Virus record (IMG/VR): IMGVR_UViG_3300035180_004093
Location: 1-30,287 of that record
Source of the DNA: a virus
Reading direction: 5' to 3' (one strand)
DNA length: 30,287 nucleotides
Positions 1-6,458 of the stretch are shown here, piece after piece (the stretch's first letter is position 1; every line of letters starts with the position of its first letter). The translations under genes were made by a program, and so were the position numbers. The notes under the pieces are model-generated. The model searched no databases. It was not told the origin of the DNA and saw only the letters and a program-made list of their open reading frames with translations.

Positions 1-612
1 TTACAGAAAAGAAGTTGCTTTATCCCGCGTGAAGATGTGTCGGATCAATTTGGCCTCCTGTGGATTGGGGACCAAGCGTCGATTTTCCACATCGTAGCCA
101 AGAGGTGGCACTCCACCCATCCACATGCCTTTGCGTTTGCTGGCTGCAATCTTGTCCCGGATTCGCTCCCCGGTGACTTCGCGTTCAAACTGTGCAAACG
201 AGAGCAGCACATTGAGCATGAGTCGCCCCATGGACGTCGTGGTGTTGAATTGCTGCGTTACGGATACAAAGGACACACCCTGTCGCTCAAACACCTCGAC
301 CATCTTGGAAAAGTCGGCCAGGCTGCGCGTCAACCGGTCAATCTTGTAGATCACAACCACATCAATCTTGCCTGCCTCAATGTCGGTCATCAAGCGCTTG
401 AGTCCAGGGCGTTCCATGTTTCCGCCGCAAAAGGCCGGGTCGTCATAGTCGTCGGCGACCGGAATCCAGCCTTCGGCGCGCTGGCTGGCAATATAGGCAT
501 GGCCTGCGTCACGTTGCGCATCAATCGAGTTGTATTCCTGATCCAACCCTTCTTCACTGGACTTACGGGTGTAGACGGCGCAGCGCATGCGCCGTTTCAG
601 CACGTCGCTCAT
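1..612 (-). CDS. Serine recombinase, catalytic domain only (truncated large serine recombinase)
   Basis: A resolvase/invertase-type recombinase that would cut and rejoin DNA through a serine nucleophile. The N-terminus has the Y-x-R-x-S signature (Y14, R16, S18 as likely nucleophile) and the D92-R-L-T-R96 motif of the resolvase fold, which spans about residues 10-155. About 30 residues typical of the start of the Recombinase domain follow (GGVPPLGYD, then a PNPQEAKLIRHIF segment). The protein then ends after a short unrelated tail, TRDKATSFL. Large serine recombinases with this N-terminus usually exceed 450 residues and carry a zinc ribbon and coiled coil, all absent here. The TAA stop lies at bases 1-3, so truncation is visible but its cause is not. 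The start ATG overlaps the stop of the DUF2924 gene by 4 bp, implying translational coupling. It is probably inactive or altered in DNA binding; that is inference. Confidence 0.88.
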   Translation of the reverse strand: MSDVLKRRMRCAVYTRKSSEEGLDQEYNSIDAQRDAGHAYIASQRAEGWIPVADDYDDPAFCGGNMERPGLKRLMTDIEAGKIDVVVIYKIDRLTRSLADFSKMVEVFERQGVSFVSVTQQFNTTTSMGRLMLNVLLSFAQFEREVTGERIRDKIAASKRKGMWMGGVPPLGYDVENRRLVPNPQEAKLIRHIFTRDKATSFL

Positions 613-1070
613 GACCGACCTCCCTTCCTAGTCGCTGCCTTTTTCTCAGTACGCGCTTTGAGACCAAAGAATACTGGCCCCGACCACCGCGTACCGGTAA
701 TTTCCCGCGCGATCTGGGAAAGGCTTTGGAACGTCCGCCCGTCAAAGTTGTAATTGCCATCGGCGCTGGCAATGACGCGATATTCCTTGCCCTGGTACTC
801 GCGGGTGAGCATGGTGCCAGCCACAGGACGGTAGTCAGGGTCGCGAGTCTTGACCTTGCCGGTTTCAATCAAGTTTTCGATGCGGCGCTTATTGCGATCA
901 AGAAGTCCTGGGTCGACCTTGCGAAACTCGATTTCCTGCAATTTGTAGGCAATCCGGCGTTCCAGAAATTGCCTGTTGTGGGTGGGGTTCGCAGCGTGGA
1001 ACAGCCGTTGCCAAAGCGACTTGATGTCCGCCATGGCCAGTTCGGGCAACTGAGAAATCTGCGATGCCAC
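609..1070 (-). CDS. DUF2924 domain protein
   Basis: A small basic protein of about 153 residues resembling the DUF2924 family, which is commonly found immediately upstream of large serine recombinases. Recognisable stretches are SLWQRLF, THNRQFLERRIAYKLQE and, near the C-terminus, a TMLTREYQGKEYRV segment with a following helix-turn-like part (FQSLSQIAREITG) that recalls a small DNA-binding fold. No biochemical role is established. The open frame extends upstream to a GTG at 1190, but those extra residues look like noise and cross a hairpin-rich leader. I chose GTG at 1070, giving an ASQISQLPELAM start; CTG at 1076 and ATG at 1034 are alternatives. None has a convincing ribosome site. The stop overlaps the recombinase start by 4 bp, so the pair is probably co-translated. 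Confidence 0.75.
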   Translation of the reverse strand: MASQISQLPELAMADIKSLWQRLFHAANPTHNRQFLERRIAYKLQEIEFRKVDPGLLDRNKRRIENLIETGKVKTRDPDYRPVAGTMLTREYQGKEYRVIASADGNYNFDGRTFQSLSQIAREITGTRWSGPVFFGLKARTEKKAATRKGGRS

Positions 1071-1101
1071 AGACAGTGGCGTGGCGGGGGTATGGTTGCG
1101 A

Positions 1102-1146
1102 GAGGTCTGAGAAATCAGACGACCCGTCAGATTTCGACGGGTCCTC
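1102..1146. repeat. Two perfect adjacent hairpins in the divergent leader
   Basis: In the space between the DUF2924 gene (minus) and the first methyltransferase (plus), GTCTGA (1105-1110) is followed by GAAA and its exact reverse complement TCAGAC (1115-1120). Directly abutting is GACCCGTC (1121-1128), a 7-base loop and GACGGGTC (1136-1143). GAG (1102-1104) can close both with CTC (1144-1146). An alternative pairing also exists: 1111-1121 with 1125-1135, 10 of 11 positions matching. It could be a regulatory RNA structure on either strand, an operator, or a recombinase site. Only the symmetry is observed; the function is unknown. Confidence 0.6.
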
Positions 1147-1200
1147 CCTGGCCAAATCGCAATGCGGGGGGAGCGAGCGCAAGAGTCCACTAGCGACAGA

Positions 1201-1237
1201 GTGCAAACCCAGGTTTGCGGGGTTTGCAGGGTTGCAC
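1201..1237. repeat. GCAAACC/GGTTTGC inverted and direct repeats
   Basis: GCAAACC at 1203-1209 is answered by GGTTTGC at 1212-1218, and GGTTTGC recurs at 1221-1227. GTGCAAACCC (1201-1210) is nearly complementary to GGGTTGCAC (1229-1237), with one bulged base. The stretch can form competing hairpins about 90 bp upstream of the first methyltransferase start. Apart from this and the two hairpins at 1102-1146, nothing else was seen in the 257-bp gap 1071-1327. Role unknown; possibilities are an operator for autoregulation or a leader hairpin. Confidence 0.45.
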
Positions 1238-1327
1238 CCCATACCGCCCCGCAGGCCCATCCAGTTCCCCTTCGACCCGCCCACGGTATTTGATGTCGGC
1301 GGGTTTCCCATTTTGAGGATCCCTCGT

Positions 1328-2734
1328 TTGAAAACGCTCAACGTCGAGTACCGAAAGGTCGAGGCGCTTATTCCGTACGCCCGCAATCCCCGCACGCACA
1401 GCGAGGCGCAAGTGGCCAAGATCGCTGCCAGCATCGTGGAGTTTGGCTGGACCAATCCGGTGCTGGTCGATGGCGAGAACGGCGTGATTGCTGGACACGG
1501 TCGATTGGCGGCTGCCCGCAAGCTTGGTTTGATTGAGGTGCCGGTCATTGAACTGGCACACCTGTCGCCCAACCAAAGGCGCGCCTACGTGATCTCCGAT
1601 AACCGACTGGCACTTGATGCGGGTTGGGATGAGGAGTTGCTGGGGCTTGAGCTTGCCGAGTTGACCGACGCAGGATTCGACCTTGCCCTGACAGGTTTTG
1701 ACGATGTCGAATTGGACACGATGTTTGGCGCACCAAGCGCGACCGATTCCGATTTGGATGATCCTGACGATGGTGAGGACGCAGCAGACGATGTTCCGCC
1801 AACACCAGTAGATGCCATTTCGAGAACCAACGATGTTTGGGCTTTGGGGCAGCACCGGTTGATTTGTGGCGATGCCACCGATCAGTCTGTGGTCGCCACT
1901 CTGATGCAGGGTGATGGTGCCACCATGTGCTTTACCTCGCCACCCTATGGCAATCAGCGGGACTACACCAGTGGCGGAATCACCGATTGGGATGGCCTGA
2001 TGCGTGGCGTGTTTGCCAAACTGCCTGTGACTGACGATGCGCAGGTGCTGGTCAATCTTGGTTTGATTCACCGTGACAACGAAGTCGTTTCCTACTGGGA
2101 CGGCTGGCTTGGTTGGATGCGCACCCAAGAATGGAGACGCTTTGCCTGGTACGTCTGGGACCAGGGCCCGGGCATGCCGGGTGACTGGTCAGGACGGCTG
2201 GCCCCGAGTTTTGAGTTCGTTTTTCACTTCAACCGGCAAAGCCGTACACCCAACAAGATCGTTCCCTGCAAGCATGCGGGTGAAGAATCTCACCTGCGCG
2301 CGGATGGGTCCTCCACTGCTATGCGCAGCAAAGAGGGCGAAGTCGGTGGCTGGGCCCACAAGGGTCAGCCTACACAAGATAGCAAGATCCCTGACTCTGT
2401 GATCCGGGTGATGCGCCACAAAGGAAAGATCGGCGAGGACATTGACCATCCGGCAGTGTTCCCGGTCGCGTTGCCAGAGTTCATTCTGGAGGCCTATTCC
2501 AACACCGGGGACATCGTGTACGAGCCCTTTGGTGGGAGTGGTACCACGATGCTGGCAGCTCAGCGCTCTGGTCGCCAGTGTCGCTCGGTTGAGATTGCGC
2601 CGCTGTACGTTGACGTCGCCATCAAGCGCTTCCAGCAGAATTTTCCCGGCGTGCCGGTCAAACTGCTCTCGACCGGTCAGACCTATGAGGCAGTGGTGGC
2701 CGAGCGTAGTAAGTCGGCTGAGGTGGTGCAATGA
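1328..2734 (+). CDS. ParB-like domain fused to DNA methyltransferase (SPPY type)
   Basis: A 468-residue phage-type modification enzyme. Residues about 6-90 form a ParB/sulfiredoxin-like domain (IPYARNPRTHSEAQV, GHGRLAAARKLG at 56-67). After an acidic linker, the methyltransferase part has catalytic motif IV S204-P-P-Y207 and the SAM-binding motif F401-GGSGTT407. Motif IV precedes motif I, the beta-class order. SPPY is most often seen in N4-cytosine enzymes but also in some N6-adenine enzymes, so the product base is uncertain. The start is TTG at 1328, preceded at about 8 bp by GAGGAT; the open frame continues to 1064 but that part has no family-like sequence and lies in inverted repeats. The stop overlaps the next gene by 4 bp (ATGA). 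It probably protects phage DNA from host restriction. Confidence 0.9.
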   Translation: MKTLNVEYRKVEALIPYARNPRTHSEAQVAKIAASIVEFGWTNPVLVDGENGVIAGHGRLAAARKLGLIEVPVIELAHLSPNQRRAYVISDNRLALDAGWDEELLGLELAELTDAGFDLALTGFDDVELDTMFGAPSATDSDLDDPDDGEDAADDVPPTPVDAISRTNDVWALGQHRLICGDATDQSVVATLMQGDGATMCFTSPPYGNQRDYTSGGITDWDGLMRGVFAKLPVTDDAQVLVNLGLIHRDNEVVSYWDGWLGWMRTQEWRRFAWYVWDQGPGMPGDWSGRLAPSFEFVFHFNRQSRTPNKIVPCKHAGEESHLRADGSSTAMRSKEGEVGGWAHKGQPTQDSKIPDSVIRVMRHKGKIGEDIDHPAVFPVALPEFILEAYSNTGDIVYEPFGGSGTTMLAAQRSGRQCRSVEIAPLYVDVAIKRFQQNFPGVPVKLLSTGQTYEAVVAERSKSAEVVQ

Positions 2735-4002
2735 CCACTTCCTGGCTGGCAGACAAGATCCAGCAATGGCCGGTTGCCAAACTGATTCCCTATGCCCGCA
2801 ATGCCCGGACCCACTCTGACGAACAGGTGGCGCAGATTGCGGCGTCCATCGCAGAGTTTGGATTTACCAACCCCATCCTGGTCGGTGCCGACGGTGTGAT
2901 CGTCGCGGGTCATGGCCGGTTGGCCGCAGCCCAAAAGCTCGCCATGGAGATGGTCCCGGTGGTGGTGCTGGAGCACTTGAGCCCCACGCAACGCCGTGCA
3001 CTGGTCATTGCGGACAACCGGATTGCGGAGAACGCAGGCTGGGACGAGACCATGCTTCGCTTGGAAATGGAGGCCCTGCAGCTGGATGACTTTGACATGT
3101 CGCTCACCGGCTTCGATGCAGATGCGCTGGCCGAATTGATGGCGGGCGGCGGTGGTGATGATTCAGGCAACACTGATGACGATGCCGTGCCGGAGGTTCT
3201 TGAGACTGCAATCTCACGCACTGGCGACGTTTGGTTGCTGGGTCCGCACCGACTGCTGTGCGGGGACTCTACGCTGGAGGAGAGTTACGCGCAGTTGCTG
3301 CAGGGCGAGGAAGTGGACATGGTATTCACCGATCCACCCTACAACGTCAACTACGCCAATACCGCCAAGGACAAGATGCGTGGCAAAAACCGCGCCATCC
3401 TCAATGACAACCTGGGCGATGGGTTCTATGATTTCCTGCTTGCGGCTTTGACGCCCACGGTCGCCAATTGCAAGGGTGCGATTTACGTGGCCATGTCCTC
3501 CAGTGAACTGGACGTGCTCCAGTCAGCCTTTCGGGAAGCCGGTGGCAAGTGGTCGACCTTTGTGATTTGGGCCAAGAACACCTTCACTATGGGGCGCTCG
3601 GACTACCAGCGCCAGTACGAACCCATCCTCTATGGCTGGCCCGAGGGTGGCAAGCACCATTGGTGTGGCGACCGGGACCAGAGTGATGTGTGGCAGATCA
3701 AGAAGCCCCACAAGAACGATTTGCATCCGACCATGAAGCCGGTCGAATTGGTGGAGCGTGCCATTCGCAACTCCAGTCGGCCAGGGAATTCGGTGATGGA
3801 TCCCTTTGGCGGTTCCGGCACCACGTTGATCGCCGCAGAAAAAACGGGGCGTGTGGCCCGCATGATCGAGTTGGATCCCAAGTACGTGGACGTGATCGTG
3901 CGCCGCTGGCAGGACTGGACTGGCAAACAAGCCACCCGCGAGTCTGATGGGGTGGCGTTCGATGCTCAGTCAGTGAGCAGTTCCTCGGAAATTTCGCAGT
4001 GA
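2731..4002 (+). CDS. ParB-like domain fused to DNA adenine methyltransferase (DPPY type)
   Basis: A 423-residue second ParB-methyltransferase fusion, translationally coupled to the first through ATGA. The N-terminal 125 residues closely match the upstream protein (IPYARNARTHSDEQVAQIAA, GHGRLAAAQKL, LSPTQRRALVIADNR). The catalytic half differs: motif IV is D201-P-P-Y204, followed by NVNYA, then an LHPTMKPVEL segment and the SAM motif F359-GGSGTT365. DPPY with HPTMKP is typical of beta-class N6-adenine methyltransferases, so N6-methyladenine is the likely product. The ParB-like part may contribute DNA binding or another nucleotide-dependent activity; this is not shown. The last 37 bp overlap the 3' end of a convergent minus-strand gene, with no terminator visible between them. 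Confidence 0.92.
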   Translation: MTTSWLADKIQQWPVAKLIPYARNARTHSDEQVAQIAASIAEFGFTNPILVGADGVIVAGHGRLAAAQKLAMEMVPVVVLEHLSPTQRRALVIADNRIAENAGWDETMLRLEMEALQLDDFDMSLTGFDADALAELMAGGGGDDSGNTDDDAVPEVLETAISRTGDVWLLGPHRLLCGDSTLEESYAQLLQGEEVDMVFTDPPYNVNYANTAKDKMRGKNRAILNDNLGDGFYDFLLAALTPTVANCKGAIYVAMSSSELDVLQSAFREAGGKWSTFVIWAKNTFTMGRSDYQRQYEPILYGWPEGGKHHWCGDRDQSDVWQIKKPHKNDLHPTMKPVELVERAIRNSSRPGNSVMDPFGGSGTTLIAAEKTGRVARMIELDPKYVDVIVRRWQDWTGKQATRESDGVAFDAQSVSSSSEISQ

Positions 4003-4343
4003 ATCACAAATCCTGTGAGGTAAGGCAGGCCGCGAGGGATTCCGTAGTCCTTGGCGGTATGGCGTCCGATGCTCCAGCCCATCCATTTTTGGGTGGCTGC
4101 TTGCACTGCTTGCGCCAAGTCCTTGCCAACATACAGATGGTTTTGGACTTCGTCCGCAAAGTGGCGTCCATGGCGGCTGTCCAGAAACGCGCGCACTGCG
4201 CCAGGGGTGCAGCCAGTGATCTGTGTAATGGCAGGCAATGCGATCGCCCATGCTGCTGGTGCAATATCCTGCATCGTTCCCCAAAAGCCCCAGTCTTCAT
4301 TCTGGGTGGCGGGGATGCTGGTGTTGGAGGTCATGGTGGTCAT
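3966..4343 (-). CDS. Conserved accessory protein of unknown function (125 aa)
   Basis: A 125-residue protein of unknown function. The sequence has a WGFWGTMQD motif near the N-terminus, a central helix pair ending in VRAFLDSRHGRHFADEV, and the C-terminal GIPRGLPYLTGFVIHCE. It looks soluble: there is no signal peptide and no clear membrane segment. I recall similar small proteins beside DUF3489 genes, which fits this neighbourhood, but no activity is known to me. The open frame runs to 4559; ATG at 4343 was chosen because AAGGA lies 7 bp upstream and the residues before it are not protein-like. A copy of the two-part promoter-like element ends 39 bp upstream. The 3' end overlaps the convergent methyltransferase gene by 37 bp. 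Confidence 0.75.
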   Translation of the reverse strand: MTTMTSNTSIPATQNEDWGFWGTMQDIAPAAWAIALPAITQITGCTPGAVRAFLDSRHGRHFADEVQNHLYVGKDLAQAVQAATQKWMGWSIGRHTAKDYGIPRGLPYLTGFVIHCEISEELLTD

Positions 4344-4382
4344 GGTCTTGTCCTTGATGGTGTGTGTTGCGACATCCGTAGT

Positions 4383-4411
4383 AACGCGCTGTAAAGCAGA
4401 GAAGCCAAGCT
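4383..4411 (-). promoter_or_regulatory. Two-part 29-bp element, copy A
   Basis: On the plus strand, AACGCGCTGT, nine variable bases and AAGCCAAGCT. It lies 39 bp upstream of the gene starting at 4343 (minus). Read on the minus strand it contains TTGGCT followed after exactly 17 bp by GTTACT, a weak sigma70-like arrangement. A second block, GCATCTTTTC(A/G)ATC at 4419-4432, is shared with copy B at the same spacing. Probable promoter or activator site. Confidence 0.6.
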
Positions 4412-4443
4412 GTTCTTGGCATCTTTTCAATCTATTTTTTGAG

Positions 4444-4809
4444 TCATCCGAGACGGGCAACATAGCGGGCGTAGTCGCCGCCCTCCGGATTGACATACAG
4501 GTACGGGCGACCGGGCGCGTGGACTTCCACGCAGAAGTAGCCGTCGCCGGTGCCACCACCTTTGCCGCGCAGCCAGTCGCGTGACATCATCAGGTTGCTG
4601 GCAAAGGTGTCGAAGTCGCTAGGTGTCATCTCCCGCGTCTCGGTGACAAAGATCCTGGTGCTGCCAAAACCGCCTACCTCGCTGAGGTCGGCAGGTTTTC
4701 TGGCAAAGGGCAGTCGCACACTCAACTCCACGACCTGGATGGCGGTGCCTTCCAGTGTCATGGTGCGAGGTGTGCGTTCGATGGTGATGGTTATGGTGCT
4801 TGCGTTCAT
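4444..4809 (-). CDS. Small accessory protein of unknown function (121 aa)
   Basis: A 121-residue protein I cannot assign. The N-terminal half is Thr/Ile-rich with alternating beta-like sequence (STITITIERTPRTMTLEG). The C-terminal half contains DWLRGKGGGTGDGYFCVEV and ends with PYLYVNPEGGDYARYVARLG. No signal peptide, membrane span or catalytic motif stands out. The start at 4809 has AGGA 8 bp upstream. A copy of the two-part 29-bp element begins 44 bp upstream, so the gene probably has its own promoter, shared in design with the 125- and 79-residue genes. Its position between the DUF3489 gene and the 125-residue gene suggests one accessory set expressed together. Confidence 0.72.
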   Translation of the reverse strand: MNASTITITIERTPRTMTLEGTAIQVVELSVRLPFARKPADLSEVGGFGSTRIFVTETREMTPSDFDTFASNLMMSRDWLRGKGGGTGDGYFCVEVHAPGRPYLYVNPEGGDYARYVARLG

Positions 4810-4853
4810 GGTGCTTTTCCTGTGCGTTGGTCGTCAATCACGACAACTGCATG

Positions 4854-4882
4854 AACGCGCTGTTCCAATCAAAAGCCAAGCT
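4854..4882 (-). promoter_or_regulatory. Two-part 29-bp element, copy B
   Basis: Same AACGCGCTGT, nine bases, AAGCCAAGCT arrangement, 44 bp upstream of the gene starting at 4809. The minus strand shows TTGGCT, 17 bp, GTTCAT. The extra shared block GCATCTTTTCGATC lies at 4890-4903, seven bases beyond the element as in copy A. A small inverted repeat (ATCAA, four bases, TTGAT at 4901-4914) sits between it and the stop of the DUF3489 gene; no U-run follows, so it is not a clear terminator. Confidence 0.6.
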
Positions 4883-4914
4883 ATTTGCAGCATCTTTTCG
4901 ATCAATTGTTTGAT

Positions 4915-5502
4915 TCAGGCGATTCGATATACGCGCTCGCCACCCTGGACCTTGTCAGACTCGATGGTGAGGCCTAGCTTCTTTTTGAAGGCTCCGGCAA
5001 AGGTGCCGCGCACCGTGTGGGCCTGCCATCCGGTGGCCTCGCAGATCTGCGCGATCGTTGTTCCTTCGGGACGTTTGAGCATGGCGACGACCTGTGCCTG
5101 CTTGCTGTTTTCGCGGGTGCGAACCTTGACGGGTTCTGGTGGCAGTTCTGAGGCGGGTGTCGCGGTTGTCTCATGTTGCGCAAACGTGGCCTCGTATTGC
5201 GCCACAGTGGCCTCCAGTTCCGGGTCGGCGACCAAGGGTGGCAACGGTTGCGGGGGCGCGACGGCTGCCACCGACGCAACCGTGGGGCGTGGGCGACCCA
5301 GAGCGTCGTAGCCCTCGGCCGCGACGTACCAGTGGGTGCCGCCGTCGGTGGTGACCAGGGCGCGGTTAAAAAGTCCGTCGAGCACCTTCTTGCGGGCTCC
5401 GCCCTTGACGCTTTCAGGAAACCAGACGACCTGGCCGTCGTTGTGATCCAGTGCGTATTGCAGGACTTGGGTTTGGGTGTGGGTGAGTTGAATCGTGGTC
5501 AT
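4915..5502 (-). CDS. DUF3489 domain protein (probable DNA-binding)
   Basis: A 195-residue protein in three parts. Residues 1-70 are a compact N-terminal segment with helices and a GARKKVLDGLFNRALV stretch like a small winged helix. Residues about 71-124 are a Pro/Ala/Glu-rich linker. Residues about 125-195 match DUF3489: TRENSKQAQVVAML, then a helix-turn-helix-like TIAQICEATGWQAHTVRG, then KKKLGLTI and a VYRI ending. The fold suggests DNA binding, but no function is established. AAGGAT about 6 bp upstream supports the ATG at 5502. It has no copy of the two-part element in front, so it is probably co-transcribed with the 79-residue gene 74 bp upstream. The leader between them is rich in C and A and poor in G on the transcribed-sense strand. 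Confidence 0.85.
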   Translation of the reverse strand: MTTIQLTHTQTQVLQYALDHNDGQVVWFPESVKGGARKKVLDGLFNRALVTTDGGTHWYVAAEGYDALGRPRPTVASVAAVAPPQPLPPLVADPELEATVAQYEATFAQHETTATPASELPPEPVKVRTRENSKQAQVVAMLKRPEGTTIAQICEATGWQAHTVRGTFAGAFKKKLGLTIESDKVQGGERVYRIA

Positions 5503-5576
5503 TTGAGATCCTTACGTGGGTTGGTGATTGGGTTGGTGGTTTGTTGCTCGGGAGTGGGTTGCAGCGGAGTTGGCGT

Positions 5577-5816
5577 TCAGTCCTCCCAAACTTGCGTGCC
5601 GTCCAGGGTGATCCAGAGGCGCGCGTCGTCGAAGGTGGCCATTTCGCGCACTTCCAATCCGGTCTTGCGGTTGGTGCCCGCCTTGTGCGTGTAGCAGTAG
5701 GTCTGGCCGTCGTGCTCGACCAGGCTGGGGCCAGTCTTGTCAAAGTCGACCTGGATGCTCATCTCCCCGCGTGCGCGGTGGTTGGTGTCGGTGACTTGTG
5801 CGTTGATCGTTTTCAT
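5577..5816 (-). CDS. Small protein of unknown function (79 aa)
   Basis: A 79-residue protein without a recognised domain. It has alternating hydrophobic segments (MSIQVDFDKTGPSL, ARLWITLDGTQVW) typical of a small beta-rich fold and no membrane span. AAGGA lies about 10 bp before the ATG at 5816. The two-part element copy C begins 35 bp upstream. It is probably the first gene of a two-gene transcript with the DUF3489 gene. It lies back-to-back with the terminase genes, marking the switch from the accessory block to the late operon. Confidence 0.65.
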   Translation of the reverse strand: MKTINAQVTDTNHRARGEMSIQVDFDKTGPSLVEHDGQTYCYTHKAGTNRKTGLEVREMATFDDARLWITLDGTQVWED

Positions 5817-5851
5817 TTGCTTGTTTCCTTGTTGGTTGCGACGCCTCTATG

Positions 5852-5880
5852 AACGCGCTGTTCCAGATGGAAGCCAAGCT
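5852..5880 (-). promoter_or_regulatory. Two-part 29-bp element, copy C
   Basis: AACGCGCTGT, nine bases (TCCAGATGG), AAGCCAAGCT, 35 bp upstream of the 79-residue gene at 5816. The minus strand reads TTGGCT, 17 bp, GTTCAT. Unlike copies A and B the flanking GCATCTTTTC block is absent. The site lies in the divergent space between the accessory genes and the small terminase gene, so it could affect both directions. Confidence 0.6.
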
Positions 5881-5895
5881 AAATCTGCAAGAAGA

Positions 5896-5909
5896 CAAAC
5901 AAATGTTTG
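5896..5909. repeat. Small inverted repeat before the terminase genes
   Basis: CAAAC, four bases (AAAT), GTTTG, ending 9 bp before the ATG at 5919. It could be an operator half-site pair or a leader hairpin near the ribosome site of the small terminase gene. It is short enough to occur by chance. Confidence 0.3.
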
Positions 5910-5918
5910 AAATATCCA

Positions 5919-6458
5919 ATGGGAATCTCGATACGTGCCTATGCCCGCCACAGGGGGGTCACCGACACCGCTGTGCACAAGGCCATTCGTACTGGTCGCG
6001 TCACGCCAGAAGCTGATGGAACCATTGATGCGGATCGGGCTGATGCCGACTGGGCACGCAATACCGATGCGCCCAAAAGGGGAACAAGGCAGCGTGCTGA
6101 GAGCGTGGTGGTCAGGGAGGCCAATGGGGAGTCGTCCGCAGTGTTACCAGCCTCGCAGGGAGCTGGTGGAACCTCACTACTTCAGGCGCGTACCGTCAAC
6201 GAAGTGGTCAAGGCGCAGACGAACAAAGTCCGACTGGCCAGGCTCAAGGGCGAACTGGTGGATCGGCCGCAGGCCATTGCGCATGTTTTCAAGCTGGCTC
6301 GCTCGGAGCGCGATGCCTGGCTGAATTGGCCCGCACGGGTCTCAGCCCAGATGGCAGCCAAATTGGGTGTGGATGCCCACGCTATGCACGTGGCCCTGGA
6401 GGCCGCACTACGGGAACACCTGCAGGAACTCGGTGACTTGCGTCCCCGGGTAGATTGA
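5919..6458 (+). CDS. Probable terminase small subunit
   Basis: A 179-residue protein, close to the 181 residues of lambda Nu1, placed directly before the large terminase. The N-terminus holds a helix-turn-helix (IRAYARHRGVTDTAVHKAI, about residues 5-23), the usual DNA-recognition part of small terminases. The middle is a low-complexity linker. The C-terminal half is helical (NKVRLARLKGELVDRPQA, then WLNWPARVSAQMAAKLGVD), fitting oligomerisation and large-subunit contact. The role would be recognising phage DNA for packaging. A TTG at 5907 would add four residues; ATG at 5919 was preferred, although no strong ribosome site precedes either. It is the first gene of the late, plus-strand operon. 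Confidence 0.78.
   Translation: MGISIRAYARHRGVTDTAVHKAIRTGRVTPEADGTIDADRADADWARNTDAPKRGTRQRAESVVVREANGESSAVLPASQGAGGTSLLQARTVNEVVKAQTNKVRLARLKGELVDRPQAIAHVFKLARSERDAWLNWPARVSAQMAAKLGVDAHAMHVALEAALREHLQELGDLRPRVD

Follow-up and report, generated by a model that had tools for sequence, protein, structure and literature searches.

A very strongly conserved promoter-like box precedes unrelated cargo genes of prophages and genomic islands

The late promoters of phage Mu, the Ogr-dependent late promoters of P2 and the MotA-dependent middle promoters of T4 share a box that is fixed relative to the transcription start, together with a weak hexamer that needs a helper. In the KorA/KorB regulon of plasmid RK2, as at the locus described here, many copies of one site stand before unrelated transcription units of a mobile element. 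Our analysis concerns a 30.3-kb viral record (30,287 nt, the whole stretch of DNA hereafter called the window) and a box that recurs in it and in its relatives. The box is real, resembles a promoter, is very strongly conserved in front of cargo genes of prophages and islands, and is undescribed in the literature searched, where the matches listed for its 10-mers bear no relation to phage regulation.

The accessory block of the window lies between two ParB–methylase genes and the terminase genes and points against them. It is transcribed from the minus strand in the order of a 79-aa, a 195-aa (DUF3489), a 121-aa and a 113-aa protein. The 79-aa protein (gene C, 5577–5816) belongs to the TDTN family, the 121-aa protein (gene B, 4444–4809) to the ERTP family and the 113-aa protein (gene A, 4004–4343) to the ATQN family (phrog_8020), all of unassigned function, and searches of the accessory proteins against PADLOC and NCBIfam assigned no family. 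The DUF3489 gene (4915–5502; PF11994) encodes two predicted winged-HTH domains. At the contig end, the DUF2924 gene of an integration operon (609–1190, minus strand) is followed by a serine recombinase gene (1–612); since the contig end cuts the latter, the HTH gene of the operon falls outside the window. This operon (1–1190) abuts the first methylase gene, and at 1064–4002 come two neighbouring genes, each coding for an N6/N4 DNA methylase with a ParB-like domain at its N-terminus. As listed, the first of them overlaps DUF2924 at its start and is probably too long.

A sequence-only reading of the window had noticed three exact copies of a two-part element, AACGCGCTGT-N9-AAGCCAAGCT (AGCTTGGCTT-N9-ACAGCGCGTT on the minus strand, which is the gene strand), at 4383–4411, 4854–4882 and 5852–5880. 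All three are exact, no further copy was found in the window at up to three mismatches across the 20 fixed bases, and the chance expectation of the box in the window is 0 (100 dinucleotide shuffles). The distance to the start codons, given there as 35–44 bp, measures 39 bases for the start at 4343, 44 for 4809 and 35 for 5816. The three bases after ACAGCGCGTT are ACT in copy A and CAT in copies B and C. On the minus strand, predicted promoter box A (4380–4410) comprises a –35 element TTGGCT at 4408–4403, a 17-bp spacer and a –10 element GTTACT at 4385–4380, with the predicted +1 at G4373 for the gene starting at 4343. Predicted box B (4851–4881) has TTGGCT at 4879–4874, GTTCAT at 4856–4851 and its predicted +1 at G4844 for the gene starting at 4809, and predicted box C (5849–5879) has TTGGCT at 5877–5872, GTTCAT at 5854–5849 and its predicted +1 at G5842, serving the first gene of the block (start 5816). 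Box C sits in a 90-bp gap, divergent to the terminase small subunit ORF (listed start 5907). DUF3489 (start 5502) is the only gene of the block without its own box in the window and is presumably read together with gene C. No box is present upstream of the DUF2924–recombinase operon of the window, although most relatives carry one there.

Recurrence at a comparable distance in relatives had been set beforehand as the test on which the element would stand or fall, and the motif does recur. Its consensus is [AC]GCTTGGCTT-N10-CAGCGCGTT[CA][AC]T. The exact 20-base pattern occurred in at least 120 stretches in a scan of viral contigs, and the 18-base core GCTTGGCTT-N10-CAGCGCGTT in at least 118 stretches in a genome scan; at up to three mismatches, at least 551 sites were counted in at least 241 loci. 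An ORF starts 28–48 nt downstream of the box, mostly at 36–41 nt, in 521 of 551 sites (95%). The carriers are phages, prophages and genomic islands of Beta- and Gammaproteobacteria, plus Nitrospira, and the hosts among the matches listed from the genome scan include Burkholderiales, Rhodocyclales, Nitrosomonas, Xanthomonadales, Pseudomonas, Halotalea and Candidatus Nitrospira defluvii. In Acidithiobacillus phage AcaML1, the nearest named phage, the box is present in the corresponding block and ahead of the DUF2924 gene. Across 30 whole genomes or records, perfect copies fall almost wholly within mobile loci, and matches with two mismatches are scattered. A few of the perfect matches, among them those in loci L196, L202 and L144, probably arose by chance in coding DNA, and one exact match in a Clostridia MAG (L157), without a convincing gene behind it, probably reflects chance or contamination.

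The geometry of the box is nearly rigid. When right halves were searched alone, the left half lay at exactly 10 bp in 543 of 544 cases; with a gap of 9, 338 copies were found, and with gaps of 7, 8, 10 or 11 none (up to three mismatches). The sole right half without a left half, near 2378 of locus L080 (minus-strand offset), belongs to a tandem duplication of the box right half and leader. In 156 representatives with less than 80% identity in flanks and spacers, about 18 positions hardly vary, a degree of conservation for which recent common descent is no explanation. Counted from the G of GCTTGGCTT as 0, TTGGCT occupies positions 2–7 and GTT[CA][AC]T positions 25–30, separated by 17 bp, and the TTGGCT-17-GTTCAT/GTTACT arrangement first seen in the window thus holds in the relatives as well. 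TTGGCT occurs in 498 of 500 sites and, matching TTGACA at four of six bases, qualifies as a –35 element; the spacer, 17 bp in effectively all sites, falls within the 16–18 bp of sigma-70 promoters. The downstream hexamer, GTTCAT in 395 and GTTACT in 83 of 500 sites, matches TATAAT at three of six bases and is too poor for a consensus –10 element, with the T at –7 kept and the A at –11 absent. Transcription standardly starts 7 nt after the –10 hexamer. The next conserved feature, outside all search patterns, is a pyrimidine-purine-pyrimidine (YRY) triplet at 36–38, which puts +1 at 37. The triplet falls on the predicted +1 in 66 of the 91 leaders that are less than 70% identical, as against a mean of 11 and a maximum of 20 in 500 shuffles, and fits all three window copies (4373, 4844 and 5842). 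A second YRY peak 3 nt further downstream (54/91 leaders) indicates that the leader pattern is not solely a start signal.

We therefore read the box, with a probability of roughly three in four, as a predicted dedicated promoter of a prophage and island family, on the strength of its exact geometry, invariance, place before start codons, start-signal statistics and host range, all taken from sequence. One box would stand before each transcription unit in a large family of prophages and related islands, laid out as TTGGCT (–35), 17 bp, GTT[CA][AC]T (–10), 6 bp and a purine +1, at which RNA polymerase would initiate; a leader of usually about 20–40 nt with a ribosome-binding site would then lead to the ATG. 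The bases outside the hexamers, GC before the –35 and CAGCGC before the –10, are as invariant as the hexamer bases, and together with the poor –10 element this suggests that a trans-acting factor may be required, which could activate, or else repress from a site overlapping the promoter. The commonest form of the box also contains a weak dyad, GAAC-AGCGC-GTTC, over the –10, with both outer bases in 97 of 156 representatives. Invariance past the hexamers, this dyad and the ParB/KorB-like HTH encoded by the boxed integration operon would also fit if the box were a repressor or activator operator only, lying beside an ordinary promoter that gives the real start. We regard such an arrangement as quite improbable, in that a sigma-70 consensus scan found no promoter at the three window starts and the box-to-ATG distance and YRY position leave scant space for an alternative start. 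In addition, first-of-cluster copies lie about 50 bp or less from the divergent terminase small subunit start, with almost no space for another promoter. The copies before DUF2924 are the most variable (CCTTGGCTT, GCGCGTG; loci L248, L249, L245 and L254, also genomes G007, G016 and G022) and would be useful to map the tolerated bases.

Copies A and B had also been said to share identity beyond the box, and they do so in GATYGAAAAGATGC on the minus strand. This is where relatives have the 5' arm of a hairpin restricted to internal gene junctions, which accounts for its presence at A and B and its absence at the first-gene copy C. At box A, the hairpin region (4404–4433, minus strand; shared GATTGAAAAGATGC, stem GCCAAG/CTTGGC) lies upstream of and overlaps the box and is also terminator-like when scored on the plus strand; at box B, the upstream arm (GATCGAAAAGATGC; 4875–4904, minus strand) marks the internal junction past the DUF3489 stop codon. 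In many internal copies the upstream arm pairs with GGCTT and the variable spacer. Own spacers paired better than swapped ones in 300 of 300 shuffles for internal copies, an advantage not seen for first-gene, VIDDV or DUF2924 copies, and the mean folding z was –2.22 for internal, –0.38 for first-gene, –0.12 for VIDDV and –0.79 for DUF2924 copies. Being limited to internal copies, the hairpin belongs to the cistron junctions and not to the box. It probably forms the 3' end of the gene before, as a terminator- or processing-like structure without a T run: a stem is present, the T fraction after it is 0.19, which falls short of an intrinsic terminator, and the terminator scan matches the plus strand alone. 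A single-strand (hairpin) promoter was rejected, given that first-gene, VIDDV and DUF2924 copies have no conserved hairpin.

The hairpin could instead be part of a 5'-leader RNA element, made up of the hairpin and a conserved single-stranded stretch, through which translation or mRNA processing would be controlled between the cistrons of a long transcript. The strong pairing of internal copies with their own spacers would fit such an element, as would the tight box-to-ATG distance and the leaders of beta and alpha phages, which look partly homologous by eye. We nevertheless consider it unlikely: first-of-cluster, VIDDV and DUF2924 copies display neither hairpin excess nor spacer pairing, the first copies leave nearly no upstream room for a separate promoter, and the –35/–10/+1 geometry would have to be a coincidence. 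Rfam gave no match in the window at the gathering threshold, nor in 3950–6000 at E values up to 5.

The genes behind the box are diverse. The ORFs that follow the 551 sites of 241 loci form over 20 clusters unrelated to one another, led by DUF3489 (118 sites), DUF6900 (105), ATQN (102), ERTP (40), DUF2924 (23) and VIDDV (22); TDTN (18) is among the smaller ones. In mapped prophages, boxed genes generally run against the late genes and comprise the accessory block, the VIDDV gene and a DUF2924–serine recombinase–HTH operon. The idea that a shared promoter-like element joins unrelated genes in one regulon thus gains support from the geometry and the recurrence at the same distance, whereas its restriction to small accessory genes does not hold. 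A single copy before each gene, variable gene content and a recombinase operon in the same element might also point to a recombination or cassette-boundary site, at which the serine recombinase or homologous recombination shuffles small genes. This we hold to be highly improbable, as the orientation and distance relative to the next start are constant, the accessory gene order is mostly kept (DUF6900 > DUF3489 > ERTP > ATQN) and boxes are also present at solitary genes. An integron attC site was rejected on its core sequence, since GTTRRRY is absent and GTTCAT or GTTACT is found in 478 of 500 sites.

The HTH gene accompanies the recombinase in 30 of 36 loci. The remaining six have an interrupted HTH gene, an HTH gene in the neighbouring locus (L267 then L268), or a recombinase close to the end of the locus or contig. 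A perfect copy stands before the integration operon of Nitrosomonas europaea ATCC 25978 and of gammaproteobacterium HdN1, on islands where none of the phage genes looked for turned up. Their loci (L266, L267–L268) hold DUF2924, recombinase (96% identical) and HTH genes. Nearby in HdN1, methylase-like and 1011-aa helicase-like ORFs resemble a restriction system, and an SmpB-like ORF follows.

Some DUF499–DUF3780–DUF1156 anti-phage genes have a same-strand box further upstream. Between it and DUF499 lies a small ribbon-helix-helix gene, which begins about 240–310 bp after the box; at this distance the usual box-to-ATG geometry applies only to a predicted, unverified ORF. Four of 10 element-bearing genomes tested have DUF499 (G002, G009, G027 and G030), each with a box at a similar distance. 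At three loci (L257, 6408–10577; L247; L128), the box is followed first by the ribbon-helix-helix gene, upstream of which stands a separate repeat-like sequence (ACTGTAAAGTGCAGTA), and then by DUF499–DUF3780. Box and ribbon-helix-helix gene are a candidate for two-layer control of the anti-phage operon. No box accompanied the DUF499-family loci that were sampled in 369 other genomes, all of one class, and this indicates that the box goes with mobile elements and not with defence genes; on this ground, the box as a property of DUF499 defence operons was rejected.

As to the regulator, the sequence-only reading had put forward the adjacent DUF3489 protein. Modelled with a mean pLDDT of 85, this protein is predicted to fold into two winged-HTH domains that weakly match winged-helix regulators, so that it looks like a DNA-binding protein. 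However, N. europaea ATCC 25978 and HdN1 have perfect boxes and no DUF3489 match in the searched assemblies, which makes it unlikely as a required regulator, and despite the plausible double winged-HTH model it was rejected in that role. The integration-operon HTH weakly resembles the DNA-binding domains of ParB, Noc, SopB and KorB (Foldseek E 0.03–0.2; Pfam SoPB_HTH, E 0.003) and, judged by co-occurrence and fold, is a better candidate than DUF3489. DUF2924 has a partial match to the RAMA DNA-binding domain (PMC11342252). In the literature searched, DUF3489 turns up in a large survey and DUF2924 only in Wolbachia papers. A PDB sequence search yielded nothing useful. Either the HTH protein or DUF2924 could act on the box, and the integration operon would be the likeliest source of the factor, as co-occurrence and fold suggest. 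Xenophilus (G011) has the box and DUF3489 and no DUF2924 or recombinase match, so that none of the candidate regulators is strictly universal. One of its DUF3489 matches is split in two pieces, which suggests decay. It is also possible that the host polymerase acts alone, with no special factor.

More diverged relatives bear on the age of the box. In the DUF3489 block of an Eleftheria terrae plasmid, GAGCGTTCAT or a variant stands at the corresponding place and is preceded at 17 bp by TTGCTG or TTCACT and at 18 bp by TTGACG; with the Eleftheria DUF3489 as query, no relatives were found among viral contigs. The 80 alphaproteobacterial sibling loci (L291–L370) have no box at all, and their leader contains a conserved GAGCGATTCT (–10-like GATTCT) with C-A 7 nt later. 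These loci carry a different conserved leader, GAGCGATTCTG...AAACGATGCAACTC, ahead of the corresponding block, and fall by their upstream sequence into two classes, TTGATTACACT and TTGCCTACACTA. The promoter-like hexamers of the Eleftheria and alphaproteobacterial leaders speak for the promoter reading, and the lack of the GCTTGGCTT half in the alphaproteobacterial loci speaks against it. From the Eleftheria and alphaproteobacterial leaders, the start-proximal part of the box is probably older and the GCTTGGCTT half lineage-specific.

Under the promoter reading, the box would drive the genes that lie opposite the lytic or late genes, namely accessory cargo, the integration operon and some anti-phage operons. 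Their opposite orientation and their link with integration and defence point to expression by the resident prophage or upon entry, and not late. More tentatively, a factor of the mobile element (DUF2924 or the ParB/KorB-like HTH) might redirect host RNA polymerase to a private promoter in hosts of several classes and two phyla, and genes landing behind the box would join a portable lysogeny and defence regulon. If the box is a promoter, more than 20 gene families, mostly of unassigned function, form one regulon; the cargo genes of a very widespread family of prophages and islands can be recognised by a near-invariant box, which offers a sequence handle for finding more accessory, anti-defence or defence genes; and the question arises how one promoter can work unchanged in Nitrosomonas, Pseudomonas and Nitrospira.

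Comparison with known systems reveals both common and distinct features. With sigma-70 promoters the box shares TTG at –35 and a 17-bp spacer, and its predicted +1 would likewise lie seven nt past the –10; it differs from them in having GTTCAT or GTTACT in place of TATAAT, and in its roughly 18 near-invariant bases, far above what sigma-70 needs. The activated promoters of Mu, P2 and T4 drive lytic genes, whereas the boxed genes oppose lytic genes and include cargo and integration genes. Internal box copies overlap a hairpin, as in the hairpin promoters of the N4 virion RNA polymerase and plasmid Frpo, whereas first-gene copies have none. The likeness to the KorA/KorB regulon of RK2 extends to one boxed unit, which encodes a predicted ParB/KorB/SopB-like DNA-binding fold. 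By comparison, the box, which we take to be distinct from the KorB operator palindrome, is asymmetric and spans a whole predicted promoter, and its binding by a regulator is putative.
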